IMG/VR virus record: IMGVR_UViG_3300021962_000327
Coordinates: 1 to 35,155 of that record
DNA: 35,155 nucleotides
Direction: 5' to 3' (one strand)
Source of the DNA: a virus
The translations under genes were made by a program, and so were the position numbers. The notes beneath the pieces are model-generated. The model had not been told where the DNA came from. It saw only the letters and a program-made list of their open reading frames with translations, and made no database searches. Shown in pieces: positions 5,052-29,969 of the stretch; within the stretch, counting starts at the first letter, position 1; every line of letters begins with the position of its first letter.

Positions 5052-6788
5052 TTAAATCACCGCAGTTGCTATTAGATTTTTAATTTTTGGGACAATTGTT
5101 GTATCATTTGAGTAAAAAACAACCTTAACCTGAAACTTATTAAAAGATGTGAATGTAGTATTTACGCCGCCAACCGAAGCGTCATATGATAAATTGCGTA
5201 TACCTGTAGTAGCTGTTGAATCTTCATCTAAAATCTTGTAAGTCTCGGGTATAAATTCTGTTTCAGAACCAACATATTTTTTACCAACATCTCCGCTAAT
5301 ACTACTTTGATTAATAACATTTGCAGATTGATTATATAACGGCATCAGTCTCCAATCTCTAGCTTCAATTGAAGAATCTCTTCCATTATCCGAAGAACTT
5401 ATAACGCGGCAAAATACATCTATATCAGTACCAACTTTACGGTTAACATCTAATTTAACTTCTAAACCAGTAGAGTCAAATCCTTCTTCCAATGTAATAA
5501 TTTTACTAATATATTTTGATTTAGCAACGCCATTTGCCGCCTTCAATTCAGAATTTCTAGTATCTGCTTCATATGGGTCAATTAAATTTTTAAATGAATA
5601 TAATTTTGTTGCAGCTTTATCTAATGCAGGGGTAACATCTGGAGTATTGTTTGTGAAAGTAACTTGTACTTTAGAATCTCCTGTACTTTCAAGCGCCCAT
5701 CTTTGAATTAATTTAAATGGAGTCTTTTCTTTAAACGCTGCATATGATTGCATTGCTCCGCTGCTTGCATTTTTGCCCTTAACTTCATATGCAATTTTTG
5801 TTAAATCACCAAAGTTATATTGTGCCGCATCTAAATAGATATTATCCATTTCTGTTCTTGGCATTCCGGCAGTCTGCAACTCAAAAGTTTTTACACCTGT
5901 TTCAAATTTTGCTTTATTAATCTTAAAGCATAAATCTGTATTTGTTTCTTCCAACCATACGTTAGTGTTTTGAGTTTTGAACAATCTTCCAGTATATGGT
6001 TCTTTTGATACTAAATCATTGCTACCTAAAATCTGTGCTCCCAATTTTCCAGAATATAATTTATAGTTTGGAGAATTTGACAACACTGAAAACGCATATT
6101 CTCCAGGTGGGAAATATGTAGGTGTAATATTAAATTTTGTTGATGCGCCTATACCAGACGATGGAGAAGCTGGAACATTTACACTAGATGCTGGCATTGA
6201 AACAGATGTGCCTGCTATGACAGTTCCTGCAGATGGTAATCCATCTATAACTCTTCTAAACTCAATTGATACTGGCAATTCTGAATCTTTTGCTGCAAAG
6301 AAAAGTTCTAAGGATGTAATAAAAATACCTTGAGAATATCTAGTAGGAACAAAGAATGTTTGTGTTAAAGGGTTTAATGTACTAGATTCTTCTTGTATCG
6401 CTCGTGTGGCCGCCGCAGGAACAACGGAATCGCCTAATTCTGCGGGCAATTTTTCATCTGCTCTATCTGCAGTAACACTTGCATAAATTTTATCTTTAGA
6501 AGAATCAAATAACTTAAATTGCAGTTTTAATGTTTCACTAATTTCGGGTGTCCATTCTGGATGTACCAACACTTGCCCAGATGCATATCCTGCGCCATCT
6601 GTGATTAACGGATCGCCGGTTATACCATTCACAGGAGAAGCCATTGCAGTATGATCTGCACCATTTGCCAGAGCTATTAGTCTAGAAAAAGGAGGAAGGT
6701 TAAAAGCTTGAAATTTAACAAGTTTTGAAACTGGGCGTGTGAATGAAACTGGGCGTGTGAATGAAACTGGGCGTATGAAAAGACTCAT
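5052..6788 (-). CDS. Virion structural protein of T4-like aquatic phages (baseplate/fibre region)
   Basis: 578 residues with no signal peptide or membrane segment. The sequence is beta-rich and ends in a domain with LEEGFDSTGLEVKLDVNR and DIDVFCRVISSSDNGRD, a pattern I associate with structural proteins of T4-like cyanophages near the fibre genes. The N-terminus is unusual: MSLFIRPVSFTRPVSFTRPVS comes from three 18-bp tandem repeats. The gene lies between the DUF4815 protein and the fibre, where T4 has genes 9-12, so it probably links fibre to baseplate. The exact T4 counterpart is unknown. Confidence 0.7.
   Translation of the reverse strand: MSLFIRPVSFTRPVSFTRPVSKLVKFQAFNLPPFSRLIALANGADHTAMASPVNGITGDPLITDGAGYASGQVLVHPEWTPEISETLKLQFKLFDSSKDKIYASVTADRADEKLPAELGDSVVPAAATRAIQEESSTLNPLTQTFFVPTRYSQGIFITSLELFFAAKDSELPVSIEFRRVIDGLPSAGTVIAGTSVSMPASSVNVPASPSSGIGASTKFNITPTYFPPGEYAFSVLSNSPNYKLYSGKLGAQILGSNDLVSKEPYTGRLFKTQNTNVWLEETNTDLCFKINKAKFETGVKTFELQTAGMPRTEMDNIYLDAAQYNFGDLTKIAYEVKGKNASSGAMQSYAAFKEKTPFKLIQRWALESTGDSKVQVTFTNNTPDVTPALDKAATKLYSFKNLIDPYEADTRNSELKAANGVAKSKYISKIITLEEGFDSTGLEVKLDVNRKVGTDIDVFCRVISSSDNGRDSSIEARDWRLMPLYNQSANVINQSSISGDVGKKYVGSETEFIPETYKILDEDSTATTGIRNLSYDASVGGVNTTFTSFNKFQVKVVFYSNDTTIVPKIKNLIATAVI
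6726..6779 (-). repeat. Three 18-bp tandem repeats at the N-terminus of a structural gene
   Basis: Plus-strand unit tgaaactgggcgtgtgaa occurs at 6726-6743, 6744-6761 and 6762-6779 (last copy with one change, gtatga). It encodes three RPVS(F/K) steps immediately after the start codon. Copy number changes would stay in frame. Confidence 0.95.
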
Positions 6789-6793
6789 TTTAA

Positions 6794-7423
6794 TTATCCT
6801 AAGAATTTGTTAACTAAAAATGTAGATTTTAATTTTGCAAGATTTTCTTCAGCTAAGTCCTGCACATCTTTTGAGTTCGGGGATACGTCAAAATCTGCGG
6901 AAGAGAGATGTGTCCAATCCGTAACAAACCCGTTATCTATACTATATTGAACTGATGTAGAAACATTAGCATTTGCATAAACAGTATTTGTATCAAGTGT
7001 ACTATTAATGAAAGTATTTAAGAGATCCACGTTAGATTGGAAACCTATTGTATTTGCATAAAATTTCTTTTCAGGGATTATAACAGTATAACTATTTTCA
7101 ATAATACCATTGGCAGCTGTAAACATTGTAGGTATACTACCAGTATAACTTTCTAATGAAGCTTGGTTTACTACATTGCCGCTTCCCTTATAAAATATAT
7201 CATCTGCAGCATATCTTACAGTATCAGTATCTTGGAACGAAGTAGTTCTCAATCCATCTGCTTGTGCAATATCGTTTAGCTGTTGAACTGTATCTAACCA
7301 ACCAGATGAAGTTGATCCGTTTTGAATATGCAATTCTCTTGCAACCTTAGAGAAAAATTCAAGTTTTCCCTCCTGGATGCCTGATATCTTTAAATTATCT
7401 AATTGATTTGGGATTGTAGCCAT
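6794..7423 (-). CDS. Putative virion structural protein, unknown fold
   Basis: 209 residues starting MATIPNQLDNLKISGIQEGK. The first half is mixed helical (FFSKVARELHIQ, WLDTVQQLNDIA) and the end is a charged helix (KDVQDLAEENLAKLKS). There is no signal peptide, membrane segment or catalytic motif. It lies between the DUF4815 protein and the 578-residue structural protein, in the same orientation with short gaps, so a small baseplate or fibre-connecting subunit is likely. I do not recognise the family. Confidence 0.6.
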   Translation of the reverse strand: MATIPNQLDNLKISGIQEGKLEFFSKVARELHIQNGSTSSGWLDTVQQLNDIAQADGLRTTSFQDTDTVRYAADDIFYKGSGNVVNQASLESYTGSIPTMFTAANGIIENSYTVIIPEKKFYANTIGFQSNVDLLNTFINSTLDTNTVYANANVSTSVQYSIDNGFVTDWTHLSSADFDVSPNSKDVQDLAEENLAKLKSTFLVNKFLG

Positions 7424-7448
7424 TTAATTACCTTTGTTATCTGCACTA

Positions 7449-10400
7449 TTATTCGCTGCCGAGACCTGGCCCGGTGGTGCCATTCAGCTCATCATATTCT
7501 TGATTCATTGCTGTAGGCAATGAATTTATATCTCCTCCGCCTATAACAACCGGAGGATAAATAATTGCTCTGCCGTTGTTTCCTAATATAGTTGCAGAAT
7601 TTGGGTTAAGATCAAAATTACTCGCAATAGTTTGTGCAATAAATTCTTCCTCGGTATAATTCATATGAACAAATTCATTTAATGTAGATACATCTGGGTC
7701 TGTTACAAAGAATAAATTATGTTGCACTGCTGAGAATGCTGGTCTACATTCTTGTCTTGCAGTATCAATTGCTGCTGTGAAATATGGGCTAATATAATAT
7801 CCCGCACCGTAATTTGAGAAATTGTCTACAAGGATACCTGTTTTATATAAAATATTGCCTTGGCTTCCATTTCGGTCAAATACTACATTATTTAATGCTA
7901 TAATATCCAAGCCTTGTTTTTTAACTCGTTTTTCTAACGCCGCTAATTTTTTATCTATAACAGATATATCCTTCATAGTATATCTAGTTGCAGTGTTATA
8001 TTCAATTTTTATTGAACCTGCACTAGGAGTATGAGGTGGCACATACAATGTGGCTAATAATAACCGTGTTTCATCTGTTTTATCTGGCGGTGGAACTGGG
8101 TTGTCTCCAGGAATTCCGTATTCCGCAGTAAATTTATTTTTAGATTTGTTTACGCTAGCATCACGATTGTTTATATAAACTCTATCGTATCTGCCCAAAT
8201 AATATTCTACGTCTGCCTCTGTCCCCGGAACAGATGTTGGGTTTGGTTTAATATATTCATCGAAATAAAATATATTGGACAGTCTGCCATCAAATCCGCT
8301 TTGGACACTCAATGGAGTATCATCTTGTCTTCTTGGTCTAAAATCTAAACAATCTCTTAAAACAAATTCTTCACCATCGGTTGTAGATCTATAAGTTGGG
8401 ATTTTGTTGTATACGTTTGCTGGATATGATTGTGCATCAATTGCGCCATCTCCAGAATGTGTAAAGTAGTCAAACACAATTAACACGTTTCCTGGAACTT
8501 CATCCGCTTTTCCTAAGAACGTAACTGAACCGTGGTCGTACCAATTGTCACCTTGCCCGCTATCTAAAAAATATTTTAATAATGATTCTTGTTGTACTTT
8601 ATCCCAATATGCAGTATTTGTTAAGGATACACCTGTGCTTGATGCAGAAGCACGGTAAATTTGACCGTTACTTTGCACCATTGCATCCGCAGCATACGTA
8701 GTACCTGCATCGTAATTACCTACAAAAACATTACTACCTACTTTGTAAATTCCCTTATAATTAAAAACATCAGATTTTAATACAGCATATCTTTCATCTG
8801 ATGTAGTTATATTTGCATTATATGTAAAATTCTCTACAAGTGTTTTTGTTCTTCTAGGATAAGAATCGCTTTGCAATGTAGCAATAATATCCACTGTACC
8901 CGCTAATACAACAGTATTAAAATCAATAGTTAATTGTGTTCCGCTTGCATCTATATCTACATCAATGTCTTCTAATGGAACAAAAATATTACCGAGATAT
9001 CCGGGTGTATAGGCATCTCGTACAACCATTGTATAGTATTCTCTTTTTATCGAATCGGATAAAGCAGATCCTGCGGGTCCAACGAAACTATTAGGTGACC
9101 CTGTACTAATTGTTACTACGCCTGAACTACCATAAACATTAGGATAAGTCTTTTGATACACAACCTTGTTGTTTGTGACAGATTTAACATTATTCTTTGG
9201 TATTTTAAATACGTTTCTACTAGATGATACATCATAATATTTCAATCTATTATCAACTAAACCATATACAGGGTGAATATTTGCAAAGAATGTAGGATAG
9301 TTGTACGTGCCCTCATTACCATAATTTGTAGTAAACGCATTTTCAACACCTATAACTGAGCGAATATCATCGGGTGTTAATGTTGTAGATGCTTGTTCAT
9401 AGTAATACCAATAGAATCTAAATGCAGAATTTGCGCCATACCCAGTTTCATATTGGATGTGTTTTGGCACAACATACCCCACAACGGTAGTGTTGTCCAT
9501 TACTGTTCTATCAGTTGTATTATGGCATTCGTAATAATTTGCCCCGCTGAAATCTTTCATATCTGGCAAACCAAACTGAGGAGCTTCTGTTACGACATAC
9601 GTACCGAAGAATGTATCTATATTTAAAGATTCTATTGTACTAGATGTGTTAGATTTTGGAATTAGGATGGGTGTTTTTCCAGATGTTGCGATATCGTAAC
9701 CACCTACAAATGCCCTACCAGATGACACGTAGAATTTTGCGTATAAGTCATCATACGTAGTTCCGGCTGCTTCTAGCTTGAAAGGATTAACTACATAGTT
9801 TCCAGATTCAGCATATGTTCTTGAAGCAAGAGTTTTTGCCAATTCATTGTATTTGGAATCTGAACTAGATTCAACTAAATCTAATGTACCATTTATATAA
9901 CGACCAATCTCAACGTATTGTCCTGTAATATCGGGTTTATTGTCGCTTGATAGATCTACCGAATCTAATTCTAAATCTACTTTTAATCTATCCGCCCCTG
10001 GCGCTAAATAATTTGAGCTGCCAAACGCAGGGTCTAATAAACTAGAATCGTCATTATAGTTTACAACACTTTCGGCATATCTTAAAACAATAGATTTTGT
10101 AGGATATGCAGTATATTTTTGCGGCACAATAGTTTGTGCTGGTGTATGAATGAAAAACCCATTCTTATAGTATGTTCCGCCACTTATTCCAAAAACTAAT
10201 GTTGGGCTAGTGCTTCTTCGTTTAATTGTAAGACCAACATTTGAATCAGAAAGGCCCACATTTTTGTTAACAATTATTACCGTGCTTGATAAAATTTCAA
10301 TTACAAATATATCTGTTACAGGGGATCCTGCAACTATTACTTCATCCCCTACCTTAATGGAATTTGTAGATGAAGATAAAGTTATAGAATCTGAGTATTC

Positions 10401-23250: not shown

Positions 23251-23946
23251 ATGGCTTTGCCTATATTAGAAACACCAACGTATGAATTGATACTACCATC
23301 TACGGATAAAAAAGTTAAGTATCGCCCGTTTTTAGTTAAAGAATATAAAATTCTACTAACAACTATAGAAGCAGATGTAACTGAAATCTCAAGAATTGTA
23401 ACAGAACTTGTAGATAACTGCACATTTAACAAACTCGATATGAATAAACTCGCGCATTTTGATGTAGAATATTTATTCTTAAATATACGAGCAAAATCCA
23501 TAAGTGAAAGTACAGATATATTAATTAATTGCAAATGCGGTGAAAAAATAGAACATATGTTAGATCTTACCGCAATTCAAGTATCAAAGGAAAATAGTAT
23601 CAGCAATAAAGTAATGCTTACTGCAGATACCGGTTTAATGTTGCGTTATCCTAAATTTGATGAAATCTTAGATATTCATAATAATGCAAATACAACAAAA
23701 GTAGTAGAACTAATTACTAATTGTATAGATGCAGTATTTACGAAGGATGATTATTTTGATTCTACATCGTATAGTAACAAAGAGTTATCGGATTTTGTAA
23801 ATACATTTACAAAGAAACAATTTGATAAACTTGAAGAGTTTTTTAGAAAAATTCCAAAAGTTGTGCATCATATAGAAAAAGAATGCCCGGTGTGCAAACA
23901 TAATAATGTAGTGGACCTTGAGGGCATACAAAATTTTTTCGTCTAG
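23251..23946 (+). CDS. 26: Baseplate hub/tail chaperone gp26
   Basis: 231 residues (T4 gp26 has 208) of the T4 baseplate gp26/gp51 family. The start (MALPILETPTYELILPSTDK, then KVKYRPFLVKEYKILL) is the standard gp26 opening in cyanophage-like genomes. It carries a possible zinc site, C94-x-C96 and C212-x-x-C215. The ribosome site AAAGGA lies 6 bases before the ATG. The 3' end carries a canonical -1 slippery sequence (23931-23940) two codons before the stop, so part of the product is probably extended into the gp51-like frame. In T4, gp26 and gp51 assist hub assembly rather than staying as major virion parts. Confidence 0.87.
   Translation: MALPILETPTYELILPSTDKKVKYRPFLVKEYKILLTTIEADVTEISRIVTELVDNCTFNKLDMNKLAHFDVEYLFLNIRAKSISESTDILINCKCGEKIEHMLDLTAIQVSKENSISNKVMLTADTGLMLRYPKFDEILDIHNNANTTKVVELITNCIDAVFTKDDYFDSTSYSNKELSDFVNTFTKKQFDKLEEFFRKIPKVVHHIEKECPVCKHNNVVDLEGIQNFFV
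23931..23940 (+). promoter_or_regulatory. Programmed -1 ribosomal frameshift site at the end of gene 26
   Basis: Zero-frame codons are caa aat ttt ttc gtc tag. They contain two overlapping X-XXY-YYZ heptamers: A-AAT-TTT (23931-23937) and T-TTT-TTC (23934-23940). A -1 slip leads into a frame open from 23940 to the stop at 24129-24131. I did not identify a clear downstream pseudoknot. Confidence 0.75.
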
Positions 23947-24131
23947 CTCTTTCCCATGAAAATCTTGTAAACTATTTTCAGTTAAATTTTTCGTTGATGC
24001 AGCATCATAAATACTCATTGACGGAAATAGAAAATATGTTGCCGTGGGAAAGAGAAATTTATGTATCGTTATTGGTGAACTATATTAATGAGGAAAATGA
24101 AAAAATAAAAGCTAAAAAAGCAAGGAGTTAA
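23940..24131 (+). CDS. gp51-like frameshift extension of gene 26
   Basis: In the -1 frame, 63 codons follow the slippery site: RLALSHENLVNYFQLNFSL, then MQHHKYSLTEIENMLPWERE and IYVSLLVNYINEENEKIKA, ending KKARS. The MPWERD-like motif and helix resemble the small gp51-like or tail-chaperone ORFs found after gene 26 in related phages. The only in-frame ATG is at 23997 (44 codons, no good ribosome site), and starting there would cut the helix that begins SHENLVNYF. So the natural product is probably a gp26 fusion of about 293 residues, like the G/GT chaperones of lambda. Confidence 0.75.
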   Translation, partial: RLALSHENLVNYFQLNFSLMQHHKYSLTEIENMLPWEREIYVSLLVNYINEENEKIKAKKARS

Positions 24132-24132
24132 T

Positions 24133-24690
24133 ATGTCTAAAAAGACTGATGAAGTTAAAGAAAAGAAAAAACCCGATGAAGATTGGATGACGAAAAAATG
24201 GCGTCCTATGATGGCAATGATGTATATGACTTGCTGTTTATTTGACTTTGCATTATTTCCAATTATGTTTACGATAGTCCAATTCTGGGAAGTTCAAGCT
24301 GCTAATGATGCATTTAGACAATGGGTTCCTATTACACTACAAGGCGGTGGATTATTCCACGTGGCTATGGGTGCAGTATTAGGCGTTTCTGCTTATGGTA
24401 GAACACAAGAAAAAGTTGCAGGTGCATCTAATGTTTCAACCGGAGTTCCGACTCCAGAGTTAAGCAGTACACCTCCAGTACAATCACCTAGCTCATTAGG
24501 TAGCGGCTTTAACTCATCACCTAGCACTTTTGGCGGTGGCGGTTTTAATCCATCACCTACTCCAAGTACCGGCTTCAATCAACCAGTAGCATCATCTGGA
24601 TTCGGCGGAGGATTTGACTCAACTCCTGCTCCGATAGATAATAGTTTCGGCACAACACCTACTAAACCAATAGTTAGAAGACCGGTATAA
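24133..24690 (+). CDS. 3-TM holin-family membrane protein with Gly/Ser/Pro-rich tail
   Basis: 185 residues with a strong ribosome site (AAGGAG). A charged N-terminus (1-20) leads into WMTKKWRPMMAMMYMTCCLF, a hydrophobic segment about 26-50, and a second one about 66-88 (PITLQGGGLFHVAMGAVLGV, ending SAYGRTQEK). This is the pattern of the GTA-type three-TM holin family. Residues 95-185 are a low-complexity Gly/Ser/Pro/Thr/Phe tail (SGFGGGF-like units). Its place between the tail chaperone and tape measure is odd for a lysis gene, and related phages keep it there, so a tail-related role is an alternative. Confidence 0.72.
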   Translation: MSKKTDEVKEKKKPDEDWMTKKWRPMMAMMYMTCCLFDFALFPIMFTIVQFWEVQAANDAFRQWVPITLQGGGLFHVAMGAVLGVSAYGRTQEKVAGASNVSTGVPTPELSSTPPVQSPSSLGSGFNSSPSTFGGGGFNPSPTPSTGFNQPVASSGFGGGFDSTPAPIDNSFGTTPTKPIVRRPV

Positions 24691-26207
24691 TGGCACAAGC
24701 ACTTGATCCGCAAAATCCGTTAGCCGAGGTCGCCGCGTTATTTGGCAAAGACGGCCTTGCGCACAAAGATTTAACTAATTTAACCTATACCATTGAGGAT
24801 TTGGTTAAAACGTTAGAAAAGCGTGCCGGCAAAGATACGTCGGACAAGAAAATCAGAAAAGACCGAGGCGAGCCGAGAACATTAACAAGCGATGTTCTTG
24901 GCTTTGGCCGTGGTCTGAAAGATGCGTTATTTACTGACCCAAAAAACTACTTGATGGGTAAATCTAGTTTACCCGCAACTGTTGAAAAAATTGAACCCGT
25001 ACTAAATGATGAAGAATTTAAAATACCTGAGCCAAAAGAAATGCCGGCCGAGGTAAAGAATGAAGTAAAATCTATAGAAAAAATTAATGAAATTGAAACG
25101 CCTATTAGCGATGATCCAAATAAAGTATTATCTATAGAAAAAATTAATGAAATTGAAACGCCTATTAGCGATGATCCAAATAAAGTATTATCGGACATGG
25201 TAGCAGTGTTAATTGATATGCGAGATGATAAGTCTCAACGACAAATGCTGGATGAGGCAGTTGCTATTAGAAAAATTCTAATAGATCAAAATAAAAAAAC
25301 AGAATTATCTGGCGGAATAGAACCTAATAACGAAGACGCCAAACAAGAAGATCGAGAAAAACTTGCAGAAGCTATTGCAAGAAGAATGACAGAGGCCTTT
25401 GGCAGTGGGATAGGTAATCCATTTAATCCAATGATGCTAGACCCAGATTTAGCAGACAGACCAACTAGAACTGGTCCTGGGAAAACAGGCCCGGGTGGCC
25501 CACCGACAGGTCAGCCAAAGACACCTGGCCCAGGAAACAAGACGCCCCCTACTTCCGGCGGATCCAAGTTTAAATTACCTAAAATGCCACCGGGCGTTGG
25601 TAAAGCCGCAATGATTGGCGGTAGAGCAACGGGCATAGGTAGTCTGATGTTAGGAGCAATTGAAGCAAGTGAATATTTAGATGAAACCGGGTATGGCGAT
25701 AAACTGAATCAGGGCGCAGGACAAAACGCAGAGAAAGCATTTAAAAATATAAATGCAGACTTTAGTAAGCTAGATATAACTCCGGAGCAAGCTCAGGATA
25801 TATTAGATCAACCGGATTCTCCGGGCAAGCAAAGGGATTTAAAAGCTTTTGGGGGAGAAGATGAACTTAAAAAGAGAGCGGCCGAGCGTAAAAAAATTGA
25901 GCAAGCATCATTAAGAAAATACGATTATGTTGAACCAAACACAAGCCCAAAAATTAATCCGTTTGAACCTAAACCAACTGAAACAAATATTGGTAAAATA
26001 TTAAATGAAGTATCAGATCAAAATACAGAATTAAAAATGTATAATATGAGATCCGAACAACCGCAAATGATGACGCCTATTATATCTAATAAAACAATTA
26101 ATAATACCGAACAGACAATTATAGGTACACCGCCTACACCTCACTCTACAACAAATTCTTTCTTGCGTTGGCAACAGAATAGATCAGGGTTCACAGATTC
26201 CCCATGA
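24690..26207 (+). CDS. Probable tail tape measure protein (gp29-like)
   Basis: 505 residues (T4 gp29 has 590). Helical N-terminal region (KDLTNLTYTIEDLVKTLEKR), an acidic stretch with an exact 20-residue duplication (residues 128-167), helices about 168-240, a Pro/Gly-rich linker about 255-300, a small-residue hydrophobic segment about 308-330 (GKAAMIGGRATGIGSLMLGA), and a polar C-terminus ending SFLRWQQNRSGFTDSP. Position directly after the gp26/gp51-like chaperone and at the end of the tail run fits the tape measure. The start overlaps the upstream stop (TAATG). Direct similarity to T4 gp29 is not evident, so the symbol is left empty. Confidence 0.7.
   Translation: MAQALDPQNPLAEVAALFGKDGLAHKDLTNLTYTIEDLVKTLEKRAGKDTSDKKIRKDRGEPRTLTSDVLGFGRGLKDALFTDPKNYLMGKSSLPATVEKIEPVLNDEEFKIPEPKEMPAEVKNEVKSIEKINEIETPISDDPNKVLSIEKINEIETPISDDPNKVLSDMVAVLIDMRDDKSQRQMLDEAVAIRKILIDQNKKTELSGGIEPNNEDAKQEDREKLAEAIARRMTEAFGSGIGNPFNPMMLDPDLADRPTRTGPGKTGPGGPPTGQPKTPGPGNKTPPTSGGSKFKLPKMPPGVGKAAMIGGRATGIGSLMLGAIEASEYLDETGYGDKLNQGAGQNAEKAFKNINADFSKLDITPEQAQDILDQPDSPGKQRDLKAFGGEDELKKRAAERKKIEQASLRKYDYVEPNTSPKINPFEPKPTETNIGKILNEVSDQNTELKMYNMRSEQPQMMTPIISNKTINNTEQTIIGTPPTPHSTTNSFLRWQQNRSGFTDSP
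25071..25190 (+). repeat. Exact 60-bp tandem duplication in the tape-measure gene
   Basis: 25071-25130 and 25131-25190 are identical, starting tctatagaaaaaattaatg. Each encodes SIEKINEIETPISDDPNKVL. Identity down to synonymous positions indicates a recent duplication. Confidence 0.97.
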
Positions 26208-28496: not shown

Positions 28497-28771
28497 AGTG
28501 GCAGTTTGCCCCTTGGTCTCATATAGTTTTGATCTTCTGCTTCGTTTTGAATTTTATCTTTAAGCGATTGATTAATTAATTTAGTTACAGACTCAACGTC
28601 AATATCAATATCATTGCAGTATCCAATTACTGCATCCATATAACTAATTGACTCTTGTAATACTTTTTCCTCAATGTAAAGAGAAAATTCGTTAGGCGAC
28701 CTAAATCTCTTAGTAATAATTAGAGCATCGGTTAATGTCTCTTCGTTTTTTGGGTCTAACATTTCTATCAT
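28493..28771 (-). CDS. 33: Late transcription coactivator gp33
   Basis: 92 residues (T4 gp33 has 112). It matches the cyanophage gp33 pattern: SPNEFSLYIEEKVLQES, then ISYMDAVIGYCNDIDIDVES and VTKLINQSLKDKIQNEAEDQ, ending NYMRPRGKLPL. gp33 binds the RNA polymerase flap and the sliding clamp, with gp55 recognising TATAAATA; two such promoters are in the window at 21534 and 21556. Its ATG overlaps the bilin reductase stop (ATGA), so late transcription control and bilin synthesis share an mRNA. Confidence 0.87.
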   Translation of the reverse strand: MIEMLDPKNEETLTDALIITKRFRSPNEFSLYIEEKVLQESISYMDAVIGYCNDIDIDVESVTKLINQSLKDKIQNEAEDQNYMRPRGKLPL

Positions 28772-29442
28772 TCGATCTCTGGAAATAAAATTTCATCCAT
28801 AAAGTTTCTAAACACCGTTTCGTCGATGCCTAAGTTAATCATCATTGCGGGGGTGTGAGGGTTCATCTTTTGATATTTACAATAATTATTGTATTTCTCT
28901 TTATATGATTCGCCTGTTTTCTCAACACATCCTACATTATATAGGTAAACGTGTAAACTTTCAATAGCTAAATCAGCTAATTTGTCCAATTCTTCTTCTT
29001 CGGATATATTGCCCGCGGCAATCATGCCGGGACTAAAAATTTGAGTTGCCCAATCAGGCAATACCCTCGGTTTATTCCATTCCAATTTTGAAGAACGGTC
29101 TATGAACCAAGTATACACATCGCAGTTGCCATTTTTAGAAAAATCATGGAACGCACCTGTAATTTTATTTGCACCGCACACTACGTCAAATCCGAAAATA
29201 GGAGTCGGGTCATCTAATTCCGGGAATATAGTCATGTGCATAACCCAGATCTTTTTTGCTTCTCTTGCATCTACAATTTCTACATGCGCGCGACGATAAT
29301 TGCGAGAAGTAAAAATATAATTTTCCCAAAGATATCCGTTGCCTTGTTCTGCGGTGTATTTTAACTCATCGTCTGTAGTTTGCTCCAATGTCTCAAGAAT
29401 ATTTTGAGACAAGGGAATCATTTTATCCCATACTAAAGACAT
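28768..29442 (-). CDS. pcyX: Ferredoxin-dependent bilin reductase (PcyA/PcyX type)
   Basis: 224 residues of the Fe_bilin_red family, slightly shorter than cyanobacterial PcyA (about 248). Core: YRRAHVEIVDA, IWVMHMTIFPE and PIFGFDVVCGANKITGAFHD, then a WFIDRSSKLEW-PRVLPDWATQIFSPG stretch. E55, H69 and D86 line up with the catalytic Glu76, His88 and Asp105 of Synechocystis PcyA. PebA, PebB and PebS have Asn at the His88 position, so this belongs with PcyA or the phage PcyX group. PcyX makes phycoerythrobilin from biliverdin, PcyA phycocyanobilin; sequence reading alone cannot decide the product. Electrons would come from ferredoxin, not encoded in this window. Start overlaps the heme oxygenase stop (TAATG). 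Confidence 0.9.
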   Translation of the reverse strand: MSLVWDKMIPLSQNILETLEQTTDDELKYTAEQGNGYLWENYIFTSRNYRRAHVEIVDAREAKKIWVMHMTIFPELDDPTPIFGFDVVCGANKITGAFHDFSKNGNCDVYTWFIDRSSKLEWNKPRVLPDWATQIFSPGMIAAGNISEEEELDKLADLAIESLHVYLYNVGCVEKTGESYKEKYNNYCKYQKMNPHTPAMMINLGIDETVFRNFMDEILFPEIE

Positions 29443-29969
29443 TAGTTGAATTCCTTAACAAGCTCAATATTGTAATCAAACGCAACACAGGCTTCAGGTC
29501 CCATATCATCTGTTAATTTCTCTCGGAAGTTATTTGTTAGTTCTTCTTTGTTTTCAAACTCAAACATTTTACCTGAACCCGGTACAAGCTTAGCAAAAAT
29601 TTGGCCGCCATTTAGATCTCCTAAATATCGAACATACATATGCGCAAGTAAATCTTCTTTTTTAGTAAGATCCATAATATACTGAATATACTTCAATGTA
29701 GATTGCTTAATAGTGTATGTCTTATCCGGCACAAGAAGTTCTTGAAAGTCTTCAAAGATTGCTTTTGTACGATATAACCCCGCAATACCTTCATATGCAC
29801 CTAATTTAGGTCCTGCAATATTTTCCATCGCATGATATATTAAATGTAGCTGATACAAATATTCAGCATACTTATTCGTATCAACGCGCTTTTGAAAAAT
29901 CTCTTTGATAAACGGTTGTGTTTCCGCTTCTTTGTGTTTTTCGTGGGTTTGTTCTTTTAATGTAGCCAT
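29442..29969 (-). CDS. ho1: Heme oxygenase
   Basis: 175 residues, compact compared with cyanobacterial HO1 (about 240), which it lacks mainly at the C-terminus. It has the proximal heme ligand region LKEQTHEKHKEAE (H12), the LYQLHLIYHAMEN helix and the distal-helix signature HMYVRYLGDLNGGQ (GDLxGGQ, residues 117-123). It cleaves heme to biliverdin IXalpha, CO and iron using ferredoxin or another donor. The adjacent bilin reductase would use the biliverdin. The ATG lies two bases after the stop of the membrane-protein gene and has no clear ribosome site, so it probably relies on translational coupling. Confidence 0.95.
   Translation of the reverse strand: MATLKEQTHEKHKEAETQPFIKEIFQKRVDTNKYAEYLYQLHLIYHAMENIAGPKLGAYEGIAGLYRTKAIFEDFQELLVPDKTYTIKQSTLKYIQYIMDLTKKEDLLAHMYVRYLGDLNGGQIFAKLVPGSGKMFEFENKEELTNNFREKLTDDMGPEACVAFDYNIELVKEFN

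Follow-up and report, generated by a model that had tools for sequence, protein, structure and literature searches.

Judging from its sequence, the T4-related phage behind IMG/VR record IMGVR_UViG_3300021962_000327 very probably produces a tail-building helper protein in two versions from a single gene. We consider the following account of how it does so highly probable. Most ribosomes would read gene 26 to its own stop codon, yielding a 231-residue TAC-N protein, and a fraction would slip by −1 on the heptamer T_TTT_TTC. During the slip, the P-site tRNA-Phe would re-pair from UUU to UUU and the A-site tRNA-Phe from UUC to UUU. Slipped ribosomes would resume at CGT and continue for 63 codons, producing a 293-residue TAC-NC fusion that carries a gp51 domain. 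Within the clade to which this phage belongs, slipping would probably be aided by pairing between GAGGG, 9 nt upstream of the heptamer, and 16S rRNA, as well as by a 12-bp long-range stem beginning 6 nt downstream. Analogy with lambda G/GT and homology to T4 gp26/gp51 suggest that TAC-N and TAC-NC may together hold the tape-measure protein, probably encoded at 24690-26207, during tail assembly. What we infer from the observations below is the slipping itself, its rate, the stimulation by the two elements, and the function of the products as chaperones.

The window, by which we mean the whole 35,155-nucleotide stretch analyzed, is a 35-kb virus record comprising a T4-like tail region and is AT-rich (36% G+C). 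Its plus strand carries a head closure gene (phrog_218), a DNA end protector (gp2), a tail tube protein, gene 26, a gp51-like tail, a holin-like membrane protein, and a gene of 505 amino acids. The minus strand carries a tube cap, wedge, hub-lysozyme, and further baseplate genes. Gene 26 (23251-23946, plus strand) encodes 231 amino acids in the zero frame, and its ATG is preceded by an AAGGA site. This short form is a member of the gp26 family, matching Pfam T4_baseplate (PF12322) with an E-value of 2.1e-56 and phrog_150 (baseplate hub) with an E-value of 9.4e-59. Its predicted structure is confident (pLDDT 87.5), and the fold neighbors of the model are gp26 and gp51 proteins. The gene ends in GAG GGC ATA CAA AAT TTT TTC GTC TAG, with the stop codon at 23944-23946.

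Two overlapping heptamers lie in the zero frame shortly before this stop, A_AAT_TTT at 23931-23937 and T_TTT_TTC at 23934-23940, as the first-pass annotation had noticed. The pattern T_TTT_TTN occurs only 3 times in the 10,767 codons of the window, which argues that its presence at the end of gene 26 is not due to chance. We compared the site with 80 IMG/VR relatives at 51-82% amino-acid identity. In all relatives that reach past the junction, the frame is preserved and the gene ends in TTT TTC GNN stop. Among 40 clade representatives with less than 92% nucleotide identity, the two phenylalanines at the site are encoded by TTT TTC in 40 of 40, even though TTC makes up 20% of phenylalanine codons elsewhere in the gene. 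Such fixation is rare at other positions, since 39 of 40 fully conserved degenerate residues use at least two codons. The overlapping −1 frame accounts in part for the fixed C of TTC, since this base opens a CGT (Arg) codon there.

A wider survey that included known phages, in which the heptamer was not a selection criterion, expanded the comparison to 229 distinct junctions. Every one of them has an in-frame T_TTT_TTN and also a −1 tail 59-71 codons long (229/229), although many are close relatives of one another and the count does not represent 229 independent events. The last base of the heptamer is C in 175, T in 48, A in 3, and G in 3. The first-pass annotation had set conservation of the slippery bases beforehand as a test that could refute it, and the bases are kept in every relative that has the tail. 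A sequencing error as the source of the frame change is ruled out by the 229 distinct junctions. The −1 frame opens no more than 13 nt before the stop in 45 of the 229. Directly before the heptamer, P-HM1 and S-CREM2 have a −1 stop codon, which implies that the frame switch occurs on the heptamer or just after it.

Of the two heptamers that had been proposed as slippery sites, only the second withstood this comparison. A_AAT_TTT is lost in one clade member (L079), which reads AGT TTT TTC and still has T_TTT_TTC, and it is also missing from most of the distant lineages read in detail. These losses leave T_TTT_TTN as the only conserved site. The predicted junction after residue 230 was correct, with F230 as the last residue shared by both products.

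A run of T residues could also cause RNA polymerase to slip, such that part of the mRNA itself carries the frame change, and the site, with at least six consecutive T in an AT-rich genome, is compatible with this. We nevertheless regard polymerase slippage as very unlikely. The clade's run consists of six T only, and longer runs are generally required for transcriptional slippage in bacteria. Moreover, the phase NNT TTT TTN in the zero frame is fixed in 229 of 229 junctions, and the Shine-Dalgarno-like element and stem described below are conserved at spacings typical of ribosomal frameshifting.

The frame entered by slipping ribosomes would begin with CGT at 23940 and run to the TAA at 24129-24131. 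Its 63 codons (23940-24128, plus strand), beginning RLALSHENLVNYFQLNFSL, had been reported correctly in the first-pass annotation. The gp51-like label given to this frame also held, as the tail matches phrog_634 (baseplate hub assembly catalyst) with an E-value of 2.8e-28. It additionally matches the far C-terminal end of phrog_150, and it corresponds to the C-terminal part of the gp51 family. We found the tail in 547 records, mostly from cyanophages, with others from Vibrio, Sinorhizobium, Pseudomonas, and Pelagibacter phages.

Many cyanophage records suggest a different origin for this protein segment, namely that it is an independent small gene, gp51, with an internal ATG or TTG start and perhaps translationally coupled to the gene 26 stop. 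It is annotated as a free-standing gp51 gene in S-PM2, P-HM1, HTVC008M, phiM9, and S-RIM2, and an early ATG is present in 31 of 38 clade representatives. However, the annotated starts vary between records, and public annotation of S-WAM1 (L092) and ACG-2014d (L094) places no gene at all over the tail before the next gene. A Shine-Dalgarno-like motif precedes none of the 31 early ATGs (0/31), as opposed to 40 of 40 for gene 26's own start. Ten loci lack ATG, GTG, and TTG altogether in the first 30 tail codons, which excludes an internal start there. The first-pass annotation had described a single ATG with a poor ribosome site in the window's tail. In fact, the tail has TTGs as well as ATGs at 23997 and 24036, although the earlier of these ATGs does indeed lack a Shine-Dalgarno-like motif.

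Purifying selection acts on the stretch of tail that precedes the usual first ATG. Across 38 loci, the −1 frame between the gene 26 stop and this ATG has a pN/pS of 0.215 and zero stops, whereas the other frames of the same stretch have ratios above 1 and many stops. T4 gp51 is also homologous to the whole fusion rather than to the tail alone. We therefore give the free-standing gene only a very small chance of being the right reading. The short ATG-started product that had been named as the alternative is excluded in loci without a start codon, and elsewhere the sequences lend it no support. Together, the sequence evidence supports the joining of gene 26 to the gp51-like frame by a −1 frameshift, as originally proposed.

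Two further elements flank the heptamer, and both are kept in the window's clade beyond what their codons need. The first is the Shine-Dalgarno-like GAGGG at 23920-23924 (plus strand), a probable stimulator located 9 nt before the heptamer. The invariant glutamate codon that opens it is GAG in 26 of 40 representatives as compared to 12% elsewhere (p = 4e-15, a value that, like all P values for the probable stimulators, ignores shared descent and is to be read as a ranking only). This preference is best interpreted at the RNA level, because the −1 frame is closed there in many loci.

The second element is a long-range stem of 12 bp, also a probable stimulator. Its 5' arm, CUCUUUCCCAUG (23947-23958, plus strand), starts 6 nt after the heptamer and its 3' arm, CGUGGGAAAGAG (24043-24054, plus strand), lies inside the PWERE codons of the tail, such that the stem closes an 84-nt loop within the tail coding sequence. 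The 120-nt stretch holding the stem folds with a z-score of −3.98. Across 30 relatives, 97.2% of cells in the stem alignment are paired, compared to 43-70% for slid versions. Stem columns 58 and 145, both at third codon positions, are occupied by U-A, C-G, or U-G, and by G-C in L079; C-A was never seen among the 30 relatives. When synonymous codons were randomized, the pairing of the arms beat about 95% of controls, with 28 of 28 loci at P ≤ 0.05 (again as rankings), and the mean arm pairing energy was −18.6 versus −8.9 kcal/mol in the controls. The leucine of the 5' arm is encoded by CTT in 28 of 28 loci, yet the commonest leucine codon in the tails is TTA. Both arms fall in conserved codons, and the stem is limited to the window's clade.

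The stem was not found in cyanophages. Strong local hairpins occur soon after the heptamer in S-PM2 (L082, after 3717) and S-WAM1 (after 1507). Their presence in place of the stem suggests that different lineages may have substituted one downstream stimulator for another. Among 60 loci outside the clade, 45% fold better than synonymous controls.

The layout of the signal resembles that of bacterial dnaX, where the slippery site is preceded by a Shine-Dalgarno-like element at about 10 nt and followed by a stem at about 6 nt. The window likewise has an upstream Shine-Dalgarno-like element and a downstream stem, both of them putative stimulators. It differs in its heptamer (T_TTT_TTC as opposed to A_AAA_AAG in dnaX) and in that its stem closes an 84-nt loop. 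No description of the clade's pair of extra signals was found in the cited literature passages.

The relationship to T4 was assessed with a profile built from 225 predicted fusions. Its match to T4 gp26 covers positions 10-235 and stops at the junction, whereas its match to T4 gp51 covers positions 23-279 of 296 (E-value 5.8e-15 in a two-sequence search) and crosses the junction with no gap there. Since gp51 spans the junction and gp26 stops at it, T4 appears to encode as two genes what the window's phage would obtain by frameshifting. T4 gp26 (TAC-N) and gp51 (TAC-NC) are homologous to the short and long forms in the window, but in T4 they are separate genes on opposite strands rather than one gene with a −1 frameshift. 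The T4 gene 26 ends in GAG TTC TTT GAG TTA CTA TAA; no slippery heptamer was found in it and no gp51-like tail was found downstream. Full-length relatives of T4 gp51 are present in 1,339 phage records, mostly from phages of enterobacteria and Acinetobacter.

According to two later papers (PMC10274946 and PMC12846349), the tail assembly chaperones of T4-like phages were identified by Vladimirov, Gautam and Davidson in 2022. The summary in PMC10274946 states that some T4-like phages have one short gene and one fusion gene, and passages of PMC12846349 credit the 2022 work with poly-T −1 signals in T4-like TAC-N genes. Earlier publications already cover both the gp26/gp51 chaperone pair and poly-T frameshift signals in such genes, which places our case within a known class. 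As a system it is ordinary, but the evidence for it is unusually good. Passages of PMC12846349 describe a comparable arrangement in Vandenendeviridae and Andersonviridae (Pseudomonas phage Adele), where a T run at the 3' end of TAC-N is the site of a −1 frameshift. There, as in the window, the tail is open in all genomes and is elsewhere annotated as a separate gene. These belong to other phage families and use the motif GTTTTT, and the passages mention neither a stem nor a Shine-Dalgarno-like element.

We lean toward a history in which T_TTT_TTN frameshifting is ancestral and nearly universal in T4-like phages outside the T4 subfamily. T4 would then be derived via gene duplication, and the window's clade would have gained a three-part, dnaX-like signal in which an unusual stem closes an 84-nt loop in the tail coding sequence.

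According to a review (PMC5009743), long-tailed phages widely share G/GT-type frameshifting, with T4 as the exception. As in lambda, a short and a long form would be made by frameshifting just upstream of the tape-measure gene, here a candidate. No sequence homology to lambda G/GT was shown, and the window has one membrane-protein gene in between. This holin-like gene (24133-24690, plus strand) matches Pfam GTA_holin_3TM with an E-value of 2.6e-5, at the cut-off. Orthologues occur in 39 loci, and in near relatives the gene lies between the chaperone and the tape-measure candidate, a place from which it is absent in about half of the clade.

The gene following it (24690-26207, plus strand, 505 amino acids) is the tape-measure candidate by position, and position and homology indicate that its product is probably the tape measure. 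An open reading frame of about 450-630 amino acids follows the chaperone, directly or past the holin-like gene, in 43 relatives, and a few relatives match PHROG tape-measure families. Searches gave no match of the product to T4 gp29 with hhalign, nor to the HTVC008M tape measure with BLASTP. Its structural model is helical and of low confidence (pLDDT 54.5).

Frameshifting could be real and its products still be structural parts of the baseplate hub rather than tape-measure chaperones, as their Pfam and PHROGs family names would have it. In keeping with this, the fold match of the gene 26 model to the HK97 chaperone 2ob9 was not significant (rank 13, E-value 2.1, TM-score 0.35 on the target). 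Sequence searches against solved structures returned only weak, unrelated matches. We consider a structural role improbable given that the corresponding T4-like proteins have been published as tail assembly chaperones (Vladimirov et al. 2022, as cited in the passages of PMC10274946 and PMC12846349) and that a predicted short/long frameshift pair lies just upstream of a tape-measure candidate, as in lambda. Homology and position thus point to gp26 and the gp26-51 fusion acting as chaperones.

These results have implications for public annotation, which either shows the tail as gp51 on its own, with starts that are guesses, or misses it; a gp26-gp51 fusion is the likely product. The T4 layout can be read as one frameshifting gene replaced by two, which makes it a natural experiment on the loss of a recoding site. 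The compact three-part signal (GAGGG, heptamer, and stem) is amenable to reporter testing.

Additional observations concern the tape-measure candidate and its surroundings. In the candidate at 24690-26207, two copies of the 20-residue sequence SIEKINEIETPISDDPNKVL stand in tandem, and there is a long stretch rich in Pro and Gly. In two relatives (L032 and L033), its N-terminal part matches twice within about 5455-7700, near 5480 and near 7100, which suggests a tandem duplicate of the gene. On the minus strand of the window, a ferredoxin-dependent bilin reductase (28768-29442, Pfam E-value 2.5e-17) adjoins a heme oxygenase (29442-29969, E-value 1.3e-23), a phycobilin pathway pair of the type known from cyanophages.
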